DNA from: a virus
Virus record (IMG/VR): IMGVR_UViG_3300028783_000001
Coordinates: 104,738 to 168,737 of that record
Length of the DNA: 64,000 bases
Direction: 5' to 3' (one strand)
Position numbers and translations under genes: made by a program. The notes below the pieces were generated by a model, which was not told the origin of the DNA, searched no databases, and saw only the letters and a program-made list of their open reading frames with translations. Positions 163 to 55,823 of the stretch are shown piece after piece (within the stretch, counting starts at the first letter, position 1; each line of letters begins with the position of its first letter).

Positions 163-2046
163 TCACGCCTTAATGCTGCCACCTAGTGCGGCAAATTCGG
201 CTTCCATTTTGGACCAGTTGAGACCATAAGTTTCCTCAGCTAGTCCGCTGGCAATGGCGTCTTTTGAGATGCACGTCCACAGCTCTCCACCTACGGAGTT
301 TGCACAATACTCCTCGACGGCTGCCCACGTGATGGTGCCAATAATGCCCCACGTGTCGATGATGATTCCGACGTCGTTGTATCCGAGCCCTACGAAGCAG
401 TTATGAACAAATACTCCTGCTGATAAAGCGAAGTTGTGATGTCCTATTACAGTCATATCATAAACATCTTGCTTACCTGCTGGTACTACTGATAAAACTT
501 TATGGTTTCGATATTCTTTGGCCGCTCGTGCTAATTTAATGTTATTTCGTCTAGCTTTTCGTTGCTCTTCTGTTACAGGTAGTTTTGCAGCAGCTATTGA
601 TCCTTTTTTAGCGTTTGCTACTAGAGTTGCACGATATTCTGGATCAGAGTCAATCTTGCGTCTTAACCCATCTGCAGCTTTGTATTTATTCGCTTCTATA
701 AAAGCTGGGTCCTTACATAGTTTGGCCAACTTCTTACCATTTTTTCGCTGCATCTTTTTCAACTTGTCAGGATCCATTCCTGGGAAGCCACCACCATTTT
801 CAATATTCCTCTTACCACGTGCGCTAGCGGTGGACCTCAGCCGGGCGGTTTGTACCGCGCGCCACTCTGGATCAGCCCATAGATTCTTCATCAATTCGCT
901 GCTCTTTTTTCTGCCTTTGTCGCTTTTGGCGTAAGACTTGAGAACTCCAGCTGTCTGCTGATGTAAAATAGAGTGCTCCTCACGAGACATGATTACTAGA
1001 TTGCTGGGATCATTGTTGTTCTTGTCAAAATCCCAGTGGTGGATGTCCATACCCTTCGGAGGATTATAGACTTTCTTGGCCACTCTAATGTAGGTCTTAC
1101 CCCACTTACCGTTTGCCGGATTGTAGAACCTTTCATAACCTCTCTCATTGTACTCGCGATACAGCGGCATCAGACTAGTACCTGGTGTCATCTCAGAGGC
1201 TTTGATATAAGTCTTGTCGCGTAGCATGAACAAGTGATCTGGTGTACATTTAATCACCTCACCATTGTCTAGCGTTACCTTTACGATATCAGCACGACTG
1301 CGCGTCTTTCTTACACTATGTGCTAGACCAGGTACCACGTTGCCTTTGTCGTCACAGCTATATACCCAGAATTTGTCACCATATTTTCCTGTTGCGAGTT
1401 CTTTGAACGACACCTCATTACCATTCAGTAGCGAGACCTTCGTATCTGATGTAAAACAGTGACCGTTATTTTCGTCTGCATTGCCGGCTACGTCCCACGT
1501 AAACCCATCAGCTTCTGGGAATGGCTTGATCCACTCGTCTGGCATCTCAACACCAAAATAGACGTTGCCGAATAGAGCGATTGCCTGCTTAATCTCCACG
1601 ATATTTCTAGAGTTTACAGCCATAAACCCGGCGATCTTATGCGACGCATCCGCGAGCAAGCCATTATTCTTCCAGAAGTTTAATACCTCCTGCTCATCCC
1701 CACCCTGATCGGTACTAGCGTCGCCAGGAACATAGCCAGTCGATGCAGAGTAGAATGGTATGTACTGGGCGTCGGTCCAGAGGATTGTTCCGCCCGCATT
1801 CATGATCAGTGATCCAGCTATGTGAAATGCGCCGGCGGTGGTACAATCACTCAAAACGTCGTTGCCCAGCACCTGTGCGAGCATTGTCTTGCAACACTTC
1901 GTATAGTCTACAGCGGCCGGTGGTGGTGGCAAAATTTCAGCAGGCTCAGATAGGAAGTTGTATAGGTGAAGGCGAGGCTTCTTGACCAATGGGCGAACGC
2001 GACCCATCTTGAAAGTTTGTCCTGTGGAATTTGTGATGATCTTCAT
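163..2046 (-). CDS. Papain-like cysteine-peptidase-fold protein interrupted by an intein
   Basis: The 627-aa precursor is an intein-containing protein. After removal of residues 197-549 the spliced product is about 274 aa. The extein looks like a phage papain-like protein: a Cys at residue 68 in GNDVLSDCTTAGAFH, a His at 196 in NNGH and an Asp in the downstream IIIDTWG would form a C-H-D triad. The intein is inserted directly after the presumed catalytic His, so the precursor should be inactive until splicing. The gene lies at the distal end of the baseplate block, 10 bases below the J-like wedge gene. A virion-associated protease or amidase is possible; the substrate is unknown. Family placement is from motif pattern only. 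Confidence 0.75.
   Translation of the reverse strand: MKIITNSTGQTFKMGRVRPLVKKPRLHLYNFLSEPAEILPPPPAAVDYTKCCKTMLAQVLGNDVLSDCTTAGAFHIAGSLIMNAGGTILWTDAQYIPFYSASTGYVPGDASTDQGGDEQEVLNFWKNNGLLADASHKIAGFMAVNSRNIVEIKQAIALFGNVYFGVEMPDEWIKPFPEADGFTWDVAGNADENNGHCFTSDTKVSLLNGNEVSFKELATGKYGDKFWVYSCDDKGNVVPGLAHSVRKTRSRADIVKVTLDNGEVIKCTPDHLFMLRDKTYIKASEMTPGTSLMPLYREYNERGYERFYNPANGKWGKTYIRVAKKVYNPPKGMDIHHWDFDKNNNDPSNLVIMSREEHSILHQQTAGVLKSYAKSDKGRKKSSELMKNLWADPEWRAVQTARLRSTASARGKRNIENGGGFPGMDPDKLKKMQRKNGKKLAKLCKDPAFIEANKYKAADGLRRKIDSDPEYRATLVANAKKGSIAAAKLPVTEEQRKARRNNIKLARAAKEYRNHKVLSVVPAGKQDVYDMTVIGHHNFALSAGVFVHNCFVGLGYNDVGIIIDTWGIIGTITWAAVEEYCANSVGGELWTCISKDAIASGLAEETYGLNWSKMEAEFAALGGSIKA
400..1458 (-). mobile_element. 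Intein with HNH homing endonuclease
   Basis: This 353-aa in-frame insertion has canonical intein ends: Cys1 in CFTSDTKVSLLNG (block A), a TPDH motif in block B, a C-terminal HHNFALSAGVFVHN (blocks F/G, ending His-Asn) and Cys as the +1 extein residue. The middle carries an HNH nuclease core (MDIHHWDFDKNNNDPSNLVI, then SREEHSILH) followed by Lys/Arg-rich segments resembling NUMOD-type DNA-binding repeats (DPEWRAVQTARLRS, DPEYRATLVANAKKG). All residues needed for splicing appear present, so it is probably active. Confidence 0.9.
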
Positions 2047-49190: not shown

Positions 49191-52100
49191 CTAGCCGTGC
49201 ACAGCCTGAACTGATGCGTCAAACTGCTTCTGATTAGCTACCACTACACCTTCCTTCATGAGCGTCTGCACGGTAGCCTTGACGGCCGCGATATTTGGTG
49301 TCATTTTAATGAGGGTAGCAGCTAGCGTCTGCGGAACCTTCTGGCAACCTATCGGCATGCTGAGCTTGGGTATGTTTCGCGCAGCAGGACACGTGTGACA
49401 GTCTGCGTAGATGTAAACCTTTCCATTCTCGACAACGCCGTAGGGACGAATCTCGCCCTTCTTTGATGCCTTCATGCGTTCCTGTTTCACCCACGCTGTA
49501 TGAAAGATCCTCAGCTGGGCCTTCTTGAATGGGAAGGCTGTCTTGTGCTTCGCGTAGGCGATGGCAAACGCGTCGAGGTTGGCTTTCACGGCCGGTGGGA
49601 TATAAAACTTCGTGGCCAGAAGATTTGCTAGCCGTAGGAAGCCAGCCGGATTCTTAACCTGGACAACGATGCTCTCATTGATATGATCGAAGCCGTTGGC
49701 GAGCAGTATCTTATCCTTGGCTCCACCTGGATCTGTGATTAGGCATTCGATGCCGTTGTAGATCATCGCCTGGAAGTCGCGTTTGTCGAGATTGGTAGCA
49801 GCCTTCTTTAGTATGCCCTTGTTACCCATAGTGATTGGCCCGTTATCATCATCCACTGGCTTCTTCACTATTACAGGCATTGGCTGCGTTCCGGGCGTCT
49901 TTGGCTGCGTAAACTTCGGCGTCATCTTCGGTGCCTTCACAGGCTCCTGCCCGGTTCCAGCGTGTCCACCACCAGGAAGCTTACCGGCCTTGGCCAGCGC
50001 CATCGCCTTAGCACGAGCTGCTGTGCGCTCCTCTAGCAACTGCGCGAGTAGCTTCTTGTGAGCTGAAGTTGGTTTTGCAATACTCTTCAGCTCCTGGATC
50101 TTCTTCCACCGTTCCTTATTAGCTGGATTCGCCTTTATGTGCTGGTGGAACAAGTCTTGAATTTCCTCTGGGCCGAGGTTTGGTCCAGAAGATATAGGCT
50201 TGGTTCCTGGTGTTGGTTTCGTCCCAGGGGTAGGCTTAGTGACCCCAGGAATTGTAATATGTTTCGGCTGCTTCACGCCCTTCGTTTTGGAGTTTGGCGT
50301 TATCTGCCCAGCCTTTACCAGCACCTTCCCCTGCGCTACTGCATCGACCACCTTCTGCGCCGGTATCAGATTGGACTTCGGCACGAGCGCGCCTTGCTGA
50401 TCTATCTTCAGTACAGCTGCACCACCATTACCGTAGCTCTTTATTAGTATGATTAGAGCCTCTCTGTTGGCGGCGTCGCTTGGTGCCGTAATACTGTCGC
50501 GACGCACTAGCACCGGCTTTTCACTGAGCCCAGGAATTAACACCCAGACTAGTAGGGCATTAGACTTCGTGGGAGGTGCAATCCAACCTGGACCAAACTC
50601 CGTCATTACCGGGTCGCCTATGACGACGTCCACGTTTACATCACCAGCCTCTAGTACATCAGGTGCACTATCTGGTTCATCCTTTACAGTCTTGGTGACC
50701 ACAGGTACCAGTTCAAGCGGCGTGTTGTTCATTCCATAGAAGCCATCCGTCCACGGTACATATCCCAGCGCGTTTAAGGCGTCACCTGGCGCAAACGACG
50801 GAGAGGTTGTAGATTGGGTTTCCATCATAGAGAGATGGCCTAGCTCGTAGTCGGCAATCGACTTGCGCTTAGGGTCTTTCTTCTGAAGGCGCGTCAGCAG
50901 CTCGGCCTTCAGCTTCTTGCGTTCGGCGGCGTACTCGGACTCCTCCCACTGCAGGAATAGCGTGTATGCAGCGAAGTGGTTGGTGAGAGCCTCGCGGCTC
51001 TGCATGTCCGACTTCTTTATGAGATTACCATCCTCATCCGTGATGTCAATGTCCTGCTCGACAATCTTTTTGAGCATCATCGGAATGCGCTTCGCCTGCG
51101 CGAAATAGGCGGCATTCTCAGGGGAGTTCACCACCTTGGCGAGGTTTGCGTTGCTCTGGATCTCACTAACGATTGCATTCTCTAGCTTCTTACTAATCAT
51201 GCGCGCCATCTTCGGCACATCGATTGATGGCTCGACAATGATCCAGTCCATGTAGATGCGGTCGCGCTTAAACTTATATTGCCCATTAGGACCTGGAACG
51301 TCTGGACGCCACAGTCGTGCCAAGGTTTGCTCTTGAGCACCTGGCGTCCACATGGTTTGCGTCCTGATAAGTCGCGAAGCGCACTGTAGGTTGTGACCTT
51401 CGCTAAGTCCGGTATTATGGACTAGTACTGGAATGCTACCACGCATGTGAGCCCCAGACGATCCCGCTACGACGAAGTAGTTGTGATCGCCCTCTACGGC
51501 TAGGTCGTACTTGTACGACCCAAGCTTGTCCTTCTTGCGAATCTCTCGGATGCGAGTTATCTTCAAGAAGTGGTTATTTACATGTGACTCAATACGAGCA
51601 CGCATGTAATCTGGCTTACGTGCGGCGTCCAGTAGCAGGCACTCAATACCCTTCTCTGAATAAGCACTACGTATTCCAACCATCTCCTCCTTCGAGTGCC
51701 AGTACCCAGTGTCTGCGACTTCCACGACCTTCTTGGCTCGGAAGCTAAGTGAACGCTCCCATAATCCGCAAGTATCGTTTGTGGGGTAAGCCTTGTTCCA
51801 TAGCTTGCACTTACCATCAGCGTAGTTGGCGCACGTACCGCACTTGGTAGGGCACTTGATAAAGTCGGGGTTCTTGTTCCGGTTCTTCCCATTTACCTCC
51901 AGCGTGACGAAGTAGGAACCATCACCTGTATAGACAAGGTTATCAATGCCCATGTCAATTATGCTGGTCTCGACCTTGTTTGGACCACCCTTGTAATTCG
52001 GCGCTTCCATGAAGCGTTTTATCTGCGCGTCACGGTAAGCCTTCGGCTTTCTAGCAAAGGCGTCACTGTATATGCCAGCGTCGACGTTTGCCTGGATCTT

Positions 52101-55100
52101 CGCATTTCTCGCTGCAACCCTTACCGAATCGTTTTCAAAAGTAGTTCGTGCAGTGGCTATATTCGCAAGGCGTGCCTTGCGGTGCTTCGGATCCTGCCAG
52201 TCACGAACTAGCGTATTACTTACTGCAGATGTTACCTTATCACGCCACTCCGTAAACTCTCCATGCACCTTGTTACGGTGCCACCGAACTTCTGCCGGAT
52301 GGGCCGTAAAGTCACAATGCGGACAAGAGTTGCGCATTGCTGATGCGGTATGACGCATTGCCTCGTTTCCATGCGCTACTATTACTCCATCGTATGCATG
52401 TGCACGGTAGCGCTGTACCTTCTGACCATGGGTAATGAGCTCGTCGCCTACTACTAGGTCACGAGCGTGCACCTCTAGTCCACTGCTCTTGAATATGGCG
52501 TGGTTATCAGTAACCTCAAACGATAGAGTCAGGTTACGCTCCTCGTCGCGTACTGAAATTTCTAACCAGCGCTCATCTCCCTTGACGTCGTGCCGGACCT
52601 TCTTGTTTATCTTGCGGCGTATGATCTCCTTGTTTTCTAAATCGTAGGCGAGCACGTGTTGTATGGAGTCAGTCTTGTAAATGTCCTCCATCGACATTGA
52701 CTTACCGTAGTCGGTCAATACATGCATGTAACCTGGGAAGCACTCGTCGGCTACGAGGATACGAATTGCATCGTTGTCCCGAAACTCCTTAATCGCTTCT
52801 GGTGTGCTGGCCGTGAAGTGGATGGCCATCGCCTTATAGCTATCACTCAGATGCTCCATAATATGGCGCGACACAACCTTGTTGTAGCCGACGATAATGA
52901 TCTTGTTTGGATCTGGTGGAACTTCAATATCACCACCCTCTTGACCAGAGAGGTTGATCTTGCCGCCGTTGAAGTGCTGGCCGATCAACTTATTAATGGT
53001 TGCCATCTTTGGGGATAGAAGATCACAACCCTTGCTCTCGAAGTTTGTATTGAGCCCCTTCATAGCCATCCAACCAGAGCTGGCCTTATCTGTAAGGTCG
53101 CTGTCTGGTGCGTTCAACCACTGTTCTAGACCTGCTAACTTCGTTTTAAGCATGGAGTCCAAGGCATCTTGCGCAGCCTCGCCCTCCTCACCACCCTTCT
53201 CTGCAGCCTCCACTAGAGAGGCAAACTTGCCGTTTTGCATCAGGAGCGCTTGCTGATTGTTTATGTAAGCGTCGTAAAACTCCTGCTGGTTGTTGGTCAT
53301 CTTGCACGCCCACACGCGCTCTACCACAGGTGGTAGCAGGTGAGCCCACTCGCGACGGCTAACTTTTATGCGCTTCGCGAACATATCGGTACGTGTGTGT
53401 AGCTCCGGTATATCCTTCTGCTCGATAGAATCGTTTGCCTTGATCCGTTTTCCGAGGTCGCCTAGAGCCATCGGCTCTAGCTGTGCCATCTGGCCGATTA
53501 GATCTGCTGGGGTATTTTGAAGTAGGGTTCCTGTGCCGATACGCACATAACCTTCGGTTCCATCATCATGGACAGCAGCCTCTGCAGACAAGACGGCAGT
53601 AGCCATAGTACGACCGGAGGAGAGCGTCTTGACGCGTTGTGACTCATCAAGTGCGAAGTAGTCAAAGTTTAGCTCAGCGAGGAAGGCTGCCCGTGGGAAG
53701 AACATCTCAGGGTCAGCTGCACCCATAAACACCTTTTTAGCTTCACCGCTAAGCCAGTTGTAATCGACGACAAACAGCGTGTTCGCTGGCTGGGCCATGA
53801 GTAACTGCTTCATAGCTAGGGGACTAGACCCGACACGAATGGTGAGCAAGCGCCAGATAACGCGATTGATCAGAAACGGGCGTAGGTAGCCATTCGTAAA
53901 CTTAATAACCTCATTTCCGAACTGCGCCATCAAGTTTCGAGGCATAGCAATGCCTGGGCGTTTAATCTTCCCGGCCTTTAGGAGCTTGGTAACGTCGTTG
54001 ATGTAGGTCCAGCTCTTACCACCACCAGCGCTAATATCGAAGATAGCCTTGAGAGGAAACTTCCTAAGCTCTGCGTCGACACGCGCCTGGTGCGGCATGC
54101 ATGTTTTACAACCCGGCATGTCGTCCAGCATCACAGGCTTCTCCTTATCTAGGATAACCTGCGCGCGGTTGTTTGCTATCGTCTCACCCAGGATCTTCGA
54201 GTAGACCAAGCGCTTCGGAGCATATACACCGAAGAGCGCGAAGTAGGGGCGGACCTGGTACTGGTTGTAGACGGGCATAGCAGACCCAGCGAGCTTCGCG
54301 TAGCACTGGGCAAACGCCAACCCCATCTCAAACAAGCCATTGTTGACCGGGTGTCCCTCGTCTAGGTGATTAAATGGGACGTCGATCATATTGTCCCACG
54401 TAAACTTCAGCGACTTATTCTTAGCGACCATCTCATCGACCATGGAGATCCAGTTCGCATGGACGCCTACTCCAAACTTACTGCATAGCTCCAACATGCG
54501 CGCCAGCATCGCGCTATCTGGCGTGGAGTTCATGACATGGGCTATCACACCAGGAACGAGCGGGCGAGCACCAGTAAGGTCGATAACGAATGCATCACCA
54601 TTATCATTGGTGATGAACATCTTAGAGATTACCCAGTCAGTAGCTATGTGCAGGCCGAGCGCGTCGGCTGATGATACCGTTCCTGTCTTGGGATTGACGC
54701 ACGAGTTCAAAACGTTTTTCCAGCTAGTGGCCTTATCCGCCGGCGGTACCCAATAAATATCTCCTGTGGGAACCGTACAGAATCCTTCACCATTAACGCG
54801 TGGGCGTGGGCTCAGGTTGAAGCGCTCAGCCACGGATTTGGACATGTGAGCGTTTGCGTCTGGGTGAGCCATTCGGCCCTTCGGAACCTTCTTACCCTTA
54901 GCATCTTCCTTGCACCACCAAGCATGCAAGCGCTTTATGTTGCTCCAAAAGCTGAAGGGAATGAAGTCCTCTTCGCTCGTAGCTGACGTCGACCACATTG
55001 CATACTCAAACGGGAATACAATCTCCGCCTTGACCATGATCTCTGCGTTGAATGTATTGTGCTGGTTGATGTGTGGTGGGTGCTCATTGGTTAGATATAG

Positions 55101-55823
55101 GGAAGAAACTGCCAACTGTAGCTTCACGATACCCTTATATTCCTTCCACTCGGCAATGTCGAGTTGGCCTACACCTGGTATATTGAACCCAGCTATCTGC
55201 TCTAGGGGAAGCTCAGCAGACGATGTAGATGGGTCGAGGATTGCAACACCATCATCCCCAATCTTTAGCTTCTCGATATCAAGCTTGGGAAACAGTTGGG
55301 CCAGCACCTTGCGACCTAGCTGGTATGCAGCGTTTTGCTTACCATCCGCGTCGGCGGCGAGCCCATGCGTCATGTGACCTAGCATCGGCATAGCTAAGAT
55401 CATTTTGCAACCGGCCTTGGGGTCGCACATGATGTAATCTTGGTAATGCATGCCCTTTAGGGTGCGCGTCACCATGAGTCCTGGGTCGGACTGCTTGACG
55501 GCATTTTCGTCCTGATCATCACCAGCGGCTTCGCTGAAAGCTTTCAGCGATAGCATACCAGCAACTACGGCGACTGCCTCTGCAATCTTCGTATACAGCG
55601 GCTTTGGCGCAGTGAAGTGAGCATACTTAATCGCCAGCTTCTTTTGAAGGGTCGCCTCATCTTCCTCTGCATTACTGTCGTCGGCGTCGTCGGTATTAGG
55701 GTTGGCAGCTACGGCGAGTGTCTGTAAGGCGTTGTTCAACCTGGTGGTCGAGAGGGACTCGACTGCACGCATGCGGTTGAGTGCCGCCTCGAAGGCCGTG
55801 TCAGCTGTATCAATCTTGATCAT
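49191..55823 (-). CDS. Giant SNF2/DEAD-type helicase with an intein (2210-aa precursor)
   Basis: After removal of residues 1028-1470 the spliced product would be about 1767 aa. Residues 1-560 form an uncharacterised N-terminal domain. Walker A lies at about residue 598 (DISAGGGKSWTY), motif II at about 722 (FALDESQRV), a further helicase motif near IGTGTLLQNTP. The C-terminal RecA domain carries KIIIVGYNKVV and, after the intein, TGLSEGHNLQ with TLARLWRPD (motifs V and VI). The last 450 residues are Lys/Pro-rich linkers (TKPTPGTKPTPG) and a small C-terminal domain. Huge helicases beside head genes, such as DarB-like or strawberry-notch-like proteins, can be packaged with the genome and counter restriction. 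Confidence 0.8.
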   Translation of the reverse strand: MIKIDTADTAFEAALNRMRAVESLSTTRLNNALQTLAVAANPNTDDADDSNAEEDEATLQKKLAIKYAHFTAPKPLYTKIAEAVAVVAGMLSLKAFSEAAGDDQDENAVKQSDPGLMVTRTLKGMHYQDYIMCDPKAGCKMILAMPMLGHMTHGLAADADGKQNAAYQLGRKVLAQLFPKLDIEKLKIGDDGVAILDPSTSSAELPLEQIAGFNIPGVGQLDIAEWKEYKGIVKLQLAVSSLYLTNEHPPHINQHNTFNAEIMVKAEIVFPFEYAMWSTSATSEEDFIPFSFWSNIKRLHAWWCKEDAKGKKVPKGRMAHPDANAHMSKSVAERFNLSPRPRVNGEGFCTVPTGDIYWVPPADKATSWKNVLNSCVNPKTGTVSSADALGLHIATDWVISKMFITNDNGDAFVIDLTGARPLVPGVIAHVMNSTPDSAMLARMLELCSKFGVGVHANWISMVDEMVAKNKSLKFTWDNMIDVPFNHLDEGHPVNNGLFEMGLAFAQCYAKLAGSAMPVYNQYQVRPYFALFGVYAPKRLVYSKILGETIANNRAQVILDKEKPVMLDDMPGCKTCMPHQARVDAELRKFPLKAIFDISAGGGKSWTYINDVTKLLKAGKIKRPGIAMPRNLMAQFGNEVIKFTNGYLRPFLINRVIWRLLTIRVGSSPLAMKQLLMAQPANTLFVVDYNWLSGEAKKVFMGAADPEMFFPRAAFLAELNFDYFALDESQRVKTLSSGRTMATAVLSAEAAVHDDGTEGYVRIGTGTLLQNTPADLIGQMAQLEPMALGDLGKRIKANDSIEQKDIPELHTRTDMFAKRIKVSRREWAHLLPPVVERVWACKMTNNQQEFYDAYINNQQALLMQNGKFASLVEAAEKGGEEGEAAQDALDSMLKTKLAGLEQWLNAPDSDLTDKASSGWMAMKGLNTNFESKGCDLLSPKMATINKLIGQHFNGGKINLSGQEGGDIEVPPDPNKIIIVGYNKVVSRHIMEHLSDSYKAMAIHFTASTPEAIKEFRDNDAIRILVADECFPGYMHVLTDYGKSMSMEDIYKTDSIQHVLAYDLENKEIIRRKINKKVRHDVKGDERWLEISVRDEERNLTLSFEVTDNHAIFKSSGLEVHARDLVVGDELITHGQKVQRYRAHAYDGVIVAHGNEAMRHTASAMRNSCPHCDFTAHPAEVRWHRNKVHGEFTEWRDKVTSAVSNTLVRDWQDPKHRKARLANIATARTTFENDSVRVAARNAKIQANVDAGIYSDAFARKPKAYRDAQIKRFMEAPNYKGGPNKVETSIIDMGIDNLVYTGDGSYFVTLEVNGKNRNKNPDFIKCPTKCGTCANYADGKCKLWNKAYPTNDTCGLWERSLSFRAKKVVEVADTGYWHSKEEMVGIRSAYSEKGIECLLLDAARKPDYMRARIESHVNNHFLKITRIREIRKKDKLGSYKYDLAVEGDHNYFVVAGSSGAHMRGSIPVLVHNTGLSEGHNLQCASRLIRTQTMWTPGAQEQTLARLWRPDVPGPNGQYKFKRDRIYMDWIIVEPSIDVPKMARMISKKLENAIVSEIQSNANLAKVVNSPENAAYFAQAKRIPMMLKKIVEQDIDITDEDGNLIKKSDMQSREALTNHFAAYTLFLQWEESEYAAERKKLKAELLTRLQKKDPKRKSIADYELGHLSMMETQSTTSPSFAPGDALNALGYVPWTDGFYGMNNTPLELVPVVTKTVKDEPDSAPDVLEAGDVNVDVVIGDPVMTEFGPGWIAPPTKSNALLVWVLIPGLSEKPVLVRRDSITAPSDAANREALIILIKSYGNGGAAVLKIDQQGALVPKSNLIPAQKVVDAVAQGKVLVKAGQITPNSKTKGVKQPKHITIPGVTKPTPGTKPTPGTKPISSGPNLGPEEIQDLFHQHIKANPANKERWKKIQELKSIAKPTSAHKKLLAQLLEERTAARAKAMALAKAGKLPGGGHAGTGQEPVKAPKMTPKFTQPKTPGTQPMPVIVKKPVDDDNGPITMGNKGILKKAATNLDKRDFQAMIYNGIECLITDPGGAKDKILLANGFDHINESIVVQVKNPAGFLRLANLLATKFYIPPAVKANLDAFAIAYAKHKTAFPFKKAQLRIFHTAWVKQERMKASKKGEIRPYGVVENGKVYIYADCHTCPAARNIPKLSMPIGCQKVPQTLAATLIKMTPNIAAVKATVQTLMKEGVVVANQKQFDASVQAVHG
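51414..52742 (-). mobile_element. Intein with VSR-like (EDxHD-type) homing endonuclease
   Basis: The 443-aa insertion starts with Cys (CFPGYMHVLTDYGKSMS, block A), has TDNHAIF in block B and ends DHNYFVVAGSSG...PVLVHN with Thr as the +1 residue. The middle contains a CPHCDF...H...H zinc finger, NUMOD-like basic repeats and a nuclease core: GKNRNKNPDFIKC, KKVVEVADTGYWHS, RSAYSEKGIECLLL. That order (PDF, E-V, H, R...Y...G) resembles the VSR-superfamily EDxHD homing nucleases. A four-Cys insert (CPTKCGTCANYADGKC) may bind zinc. It splits helicase motif V. Confidence 0.85.

Follow-up and report, generated by a model that had tools for sequence, protein, structure and literature searches.

A contiguous intein with a Vsr/EDxHD-type nuclease domain in motif V of a phage DNA helicase

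Inteins are usually described with LAGLIDADG or HNH nucleases. Within a 64,000-nucleotide stretch of the IMG/VR record IMGVR_UViG_3300028783_000001 (here called the window), the gene of a phage DNA helicase is interrupted in motif V by an intein with a different kind of middle region, which raises the question of what this nuclease is, whether the element is mobile and how it came to this site. The analysis described below indicates that it is very probably a contiguous mobile intein with a Vsr/EDxHD homing endonuclease, self-splicing and homing into motif V.

The intein and its insertion site

The source record is a 168,737-base fragment of an uncultivated virus in which the motif-V intein is present once. 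The helicase precursor, the intein and its two splicing parts lie as follows, with the slash marking the junction and pLDDT denoting the predicted local distance difference test score.

49191..55823, (-) strand: SNF2/SF2-like phage DNA helicase precursor, a single open frame of 2210 amino acids with exteins of about 1767 amino acids
51414..52742, (-) strand: helicase intein of 443 amino acids (C1 to N443), with Thr as the +1 extein residue, in motif V (VADE/TGLSEGHNLQ)
52419..52742, (-) strand: N-terminal Hint splicing part (amino acids 1–108), with block A C1 and block B T78xxH81; AlphaFold pLDDT about 81–96
51414..51578, (-) strand: C-terminal Hint splicing part (amino acids 389–443), with block F YDLAVEGDHNYF and block G PVLVHN; pLDDT about 70–92

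The helicase exteins match PHROG DNA helicase families (E 8e-64 and 7e-16), and a weak match to the Pfam SNF2-rel_dom model was also found; the N-extein as a single-sequence query matched no viral contig. The intein takes up helicase residues 1028–1470, in frame, with an E/T junction. The site is empty in all five isolate-phage homologues that were aligned (Vibrio GR11A, Vibrio GR7B, Burkholderia BcepSaruman, Achromobacter Motura and Rhizobium RHEph12), which match residue for residue across the junction and have motifs I, V and VI aligned. Motif V is likewise uninterrupted in 51 of 53 further IMG/VR relatives, the other two having inteins 10–11 residues downstream. An earlier reading, made from the sequence only, had placed an intein at 51414–52742 between ILVADE and TGLSEGHNLQ, and these flanks together with the empty sites of the homologues show that placement to be exact to the base.

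The splicing blocks are complete, with C1, T78 and H81, block F and H442–N443, followed by Thr, and the intein matches the Pfam Intein_splicing model with 41.1 bits against a cut-off of 35.8. For the Hint part, an AlphaFold model built on seven homologous inteins gave pLDDT values that were mostly above 80. Foldseek placed the NrdJ-1 split intein first for this part (8ubs, E 1.7e-5), followed by PI-PfuI, the Mtu RecA inteins and others, and NrdJ-1 was also first by sequence when a profile of the seven inteins was compared with the PDB (E 9e-10). It is hardly credible that the insertion is instead a non-splicing domain of the helicase, given the full set of blocks A, B, F and G, the HN/T junction, the empty sites of homologues and best matches to NrdJ-1 and PI-PfuI.

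The intein is encoded in one uninterrupted open reading frame (ORF), so that the organisation of fractured-gene split inteins is not found here. No HNH motif was matched in it, nor any LAGLIDADG/Hom_end model at E 1–10, in agreement with the sequence-only reading that it is unlike LAGLIDADG inteins. Used as a single-sequence query, it had no match in phages or viral contigs, and in the PDB none to a nuclease. A weak Pfam match to Asparaginase (amino acids 107–137), below the cut-off, was rejected as chance.

Kinship of the nuclease domain

Between the two Hint parts lie two segments of DNA-binding type, followed by the nuclease domain and an insert within it.

52263..52325, (-) strand: C2H2 zinc-finger-like motif CPHC-x11-H-x4-H (amino acids 140–160), from the sequence
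51993..52259, (-) strand: predicted helical NUMOD3-like DNA-binding array (amino acids 162–250; WRD..., WQDPKHRKARL..., APNY), from the sequence, with helices in the model
51579..51989, (-) strand: Vsr/EDxHD-family nuclease domain (amino acids 252–388) with E258, D293, E341 and H349, from the family profile, homologous inteins and the model
51741..51857, (-) strand: Cys-rich insert (amino acids 296–334) between the NPDF and KVVEV strands, with four Cys common to the related intein L164

A family profile was made of 12 nucleases from phage and viral records, gathered by the family motif NPDF...GDYWH with the window excluded. Since the window intein does not itself match this motif, the test with the profile is not circular. 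Against the PDB, the profile found Vsr (1cw0, 1vsr and 1odg), I-Bth0305I (3r3p) and 3hrl, with no other entry above noise. It scored the intein at 25 bits, or 34 bits without the Cys insert, the best of 2,000 shuffles reaching 7.7. Comparison by hhalign of the intein with the Vsr/EDxHD profile gave a probability of 96.2% (E 2e-9), that of the intein-nuclease profile with the EDxHD family profile gave 99.2% (E 6e-20), and the HNH intein of the window, used as a negative control, gave 0.2%. The residues E258 (helix Glu), D293 (NPDF), E341 (VIEV) and H349 (YWH) fill conserved columns of the family. In an AlphaFold model of the nuclease only, the core reaches pLDDT values above 90, and the elements follow one another as helix, strands, helix, strand, helix.

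Several points weigh against this assignment. The acidic residues E352 and E353 come after H349 and there is no clear equivalent of the final acidic residue of EDxHD, while the GD of GDYWH is replaced by TG. No nuclease model of Pfam, NCBIfam or PHROG matches the domain directly, and Foldseek of the nuclease model against the PDB gave no significant match to Vsr or 3r3p. Against viral models the Foldseek matches were marginal (E about 5e-3 and weaker), with names that were mostly those of endonucleases: homing endonucleases, endonuclease I and one VSR homing endonuclease. As TnsA and endonuclease I are among the top Foldseek matches and the folds are related, a generic PD-(D/E)XK or TnsA-like nuclease has to be considered. 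This is very unlikely, however, as the homologue profile finds only entries of the Vsr superfamily (1cw0, 3r3p, 1vsr, 1odg and 3hrl) above noise and the order KPE...NPDF...VIEV...YWH agrees with the Vsr/EDxHD family. The sequence evidence for kinship with Vsr/EDxHD is taken to be decisive, and that from the fold neutral to mildly supportive. Three lines uphold the proposal that the middle region is a VSR-like nuclease: an independent profile, homologous inteins in which the nuclease domain is clearer, and the succession of secondary-structure elements in the model.

Related inteins in uncultivated phages

At least 11 other contiguous EDxHD inteins were found in IMG/VR contigs, most of them at the DE/CH Walker-B motif of SF2 helicases; the sampling relied on short conserved peptides, so that these counts are lower bounds. 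Three of them sit in motif V of homologues of the window helicase. Two of these, L147 (NLQ/CASR) and L151 (NLQF/CSRL), came from the scan with the helicase, and scans with both added L159 (NLQY/CSRL). A fourth position in motif V is held by L158 (5001–5738, RLVR/CETVW), a mini-intein in which the nuclease is deleted and the C2H2 finger kept. Also found were L160, L161, L164, L165 (near-identical to L166), L168, L169, L170 and the fragment L167, all in SF2-type helicases (Pfam ResIII, DEAD or Helicase_C where tested; L165 and L167 were not scanned). In these the insertion is at DE/CH of motif II wherever the N junction is present. The last scan gave eight contigs (L267–L273 and L275) with inteins in QueE, the 7-carboxy-7-deazaguanine synthase, inserted immediately ahead of the final Cys in the radical-SAM motif and carrying a more distant EDxHD-like nuclease (97% by hhalign for L268).

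These nucleases do not usually occur within an intein: in the first set of viral contigs, about 100 other EDxHD domains all lie at the C-terminus, ending their proteins, and none is inside an intein. None of the members tested found a match as an intein among 50,697 isolate-phage records. A first genome scan gave no relative, and the matches of a second were confined to Hint N-parts of other inteins, mostly actinobacterial, with no EDxHD nuclease in those. The contiguous EDxHD inteins form a small, apparently undescribed clan invading helicases and one other enzyme. For the sequence-only reading, in which the nuclease of the helicase intein was said to resemble the rare EDxHD class, this means that the class holds but that the intein is less isolated than implied, being one of several.

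The DNA-binding segments are also found among the relatives. A C2H2-like motif similar to that of the window occurs in L151, L158, L159, L160, L164, L165, L168 and L169, and Pfam zf-C2H2 matches the L168 intein. The counterpart of the NUMOD3-like array in L147 matches the T4 MobD homing endonuclease.

Three further observations were made on these contigs. In L168 (5001–6386) five C2H2-like fingers lie in a row before the nuclease, which is an unusually long array for a phage homing enzyme. The helicase ORF of L161 (from 4269) has, besides the motif-II EDxHD intein, a second intein near motif III, starting at SLC/LHKKTKVL or nearby. In L150 (10967–11953), an intein-free relative of the helicase is followed about 2.3 kb downstream by a free-standing EDxHD nuclease of the WHTKEE type, which may be a free homing enzyme directed at that gene.

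The state of the nuclease varies among the motif-V copies. The His is lost in L147, L151 and L159, which have GARAY, GARQY and GGRKW where GYWH is expected, and these losses, like that of the whole nuclease in L158, fit decay in a homing cycle. It may be asked whether the window intein has gone the same way, with splicing retained, the nuclease decayed late in the homing cycle and the element persisting as motif V tolerates no imprecise loss. The state of these kin, the long terminal branch of the window in one tree and the absence of the usual GD before YWH all speak for this. Against it, the frame is open, none of E258, D293, E341 and H349 is lost, WHSKEE corresponds to WHTKEE of L160 and L161, and both the finger and the Cys insert are retained, and a decayed nuclease is considered rather unlikely.

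History of the insertion sites

In the nuclease tree the enzymes of the helicase inteins group in a single clade, apart from the free-standing ones that were sampled (support 99/98). In the Hint tree the motif-V domains form one clade (98/96) split from the rest. L164 adjoins the motif-V clade in both (87/91 for Hint and 93/91 for the nuclease). Long branches leave the exact placement of the window nuclease unsure. By tree and anatomy, the window intein belongs to the EDxHD clan residing mostly at the Walker-B DE/CH of SF2 helicases.

A DE/ junction is retained by the window copy only; its motif-V kin lie 10–17 codons downstream. Of the 30 junction bases on its N side, 12–16 match those of motif-II sites, compared with 5–8 for the other motif-V sites; it counts against reading descent into this figure that similar protein motifs alone could give rise to such similarity in DNA. 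A jump from motif II is the probable origin of the motif-V branch, and the simplest reading is that a nuclease was captured once, resided at DE/CH and jumped once to motif V. In motif V, insertions occur at four points over 17 codons (51 bases), a span that would fit inside the footprint of roughly 60 bases reported for I-Bth0305I (PMC3943268), and it may be hypothesized that a long nuclease footprint of this kind explains the four points.

The Cys-rich insert bears on the same history. The four-Cys insertion noticed earlier is present at residues 296–334 as five Cys, four of them, in a CxxC...C...C pattern, common to L164, which alone among all loci has the same insert at the same place (KCGTCKYLEECKKEEGVRVNTNACVDW in one and KCGTCANYADGKCKLWNKAYPTNDTCGLW in the other). 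The insert is taken to be inherited because it occupies the same place in L164, which adjoins the motif-V clade in both trees. As a query by itself the insert gave no relative in phages or the PDB. It is probably a small metal site on a loop of the nuclease. Conditional splicing is known for some inteins, and a four-Cys insert within the intein, shared with L164, could suggest that insert and finger together make splicing depend on metal or redox state, the intein being mainly a regulator of the helicase and not a mobile element. The insert lies in the nuclease, however, distant in sequence from the Hint part, it is absent from most relatives, and its position on a nuclease loop suggests a role in folding or DNA binding; a regulatory intein of this kind is accordingly highly doubtful.

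Taken together, the contiguous EDxHD inteins may, tentatively, represent an undescribed phage class that entered at DE/CH, jumped to motif V with the DE/T copy of the window as the hinge, slid over four points by virtue of a long footprint, and is the unbroken counterpart of fractured-gene split inteins such as NrdJ-1. This wider scheme is possible but is not the likelier outcome.

Proposed mechanism

From the above we infer a cycle of splicing and homing for the helicase intein. The 2210 amino acid precursor would splice itself, with an acyl shift begun by C1 and aided by T78 and H81, the +1 Thr of the C-extein serving as acceptor and N443 cyclising, so that the helicase would be rejoined as ...ILVADE-TGLSEGHNLQ.... 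The freed 443 amino acid intein is then predicted to bind the motif-V coding DNA of intein-less phages via its C2H2 finger and NUMOD-like helices. The centre formed by E258, D293, E341 and H349 would cut this DNA, and repair of the break would copy the intein into the empty site. The mini-intein L158 with its deleted nuclease fits such a cycle.

Other inteins of the record

A second intein lies about 50 kb from the first in the window.

400..1458, (-) strand: second window intein of 353 amino acids with an HNH_3 nuclease, in ORF 163–2046 (NGH/C...HN/CFVGLGY); a separate lineage

Its Pfam HNH_3 match has an E value of 3e-7. The sequence-only reading had noted two unrelated intein lineages within about 50 kb, and this stands, the HNH_3 nuclease of 400–1458 scoring as the control value given above against the Vsr/EDxHD profile and its intein lying on a far branch from the helicase intein. 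The HNH intein sits in a protein of PHROG 19005, a family of unknown function; this host may be a papain-like enzyme interrupted at its His motif.

A third intein of the record lies outside the window (near G000:C1:55454-55654; L252 34–1752 and 1834–3192). Its two halves are encoded in neighbouring ORFs of a DNA polymerase I-like protein, ...TGRCSA/SWTPCLTKKG... and ...SANVFSHN/SGSSNPNLQNQ, with only about 80 bases between them and no nuclease gene there.

Comparison with known systems

Dassa is said to have reported in 2009 that about half of fractured-gene split-intein loci have a Vsr-like gene between the intein halves. Group I introns are a known setting of EDxHD enzymes, which also occur free-standing (PMC3943268); distant members lie in phage group II introns (PMC12350094). 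An EDxHD domain built into a contiguous intein is described in none of the papers found; an earlier case may exist, as the intein section of PMC9403480 mentions a DUF559/EDxHD gene, without detail. The Vsr-type intein clan represents a further independent union of a splicing element and a nuclease, and its contiguous form can now be compared with the fractured genes behind the fast split inteins of biotechnology. With two helicase motifs and four points in one motif, the change of insertion site and the origin of split inteins become testable.

The I-Bth0305I/EDxHD family (Taylor 2011, doi 10.1093/nar/gkr669) shares with the window element a homologous catalytic domain, modular DNA-binding segments before it and the nature of a phage homing element. 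Its known members are intron-borne or free-standing, whereas in the window the nuclease is part of a contiguous intein and has a four-Cys insert. The E. coli Vsr mismatch endonuclease (1cw0, 1vsr) has a catalytic domain of the same superfamily but is a repair enzyme for T:G mismatches, without the intein, finger or NUMOD array. HNH and LAGLIDADG inteins, such as that at 400–1458 of the window and PI-PfuI, have the Hint domain and a nuclease between blocks B and F in common with the helicase intein, but their nuclease families are unrelated to its own. The splicing domain finds its best match, in both structure and sequence, in NrdJ-1, which together with gp41-1 belongs to the fractured-gene split inteins of phage metagenomes; there, a split intein is accompanied by a separate nuclease gene, whereas the window element is one polypeptide.

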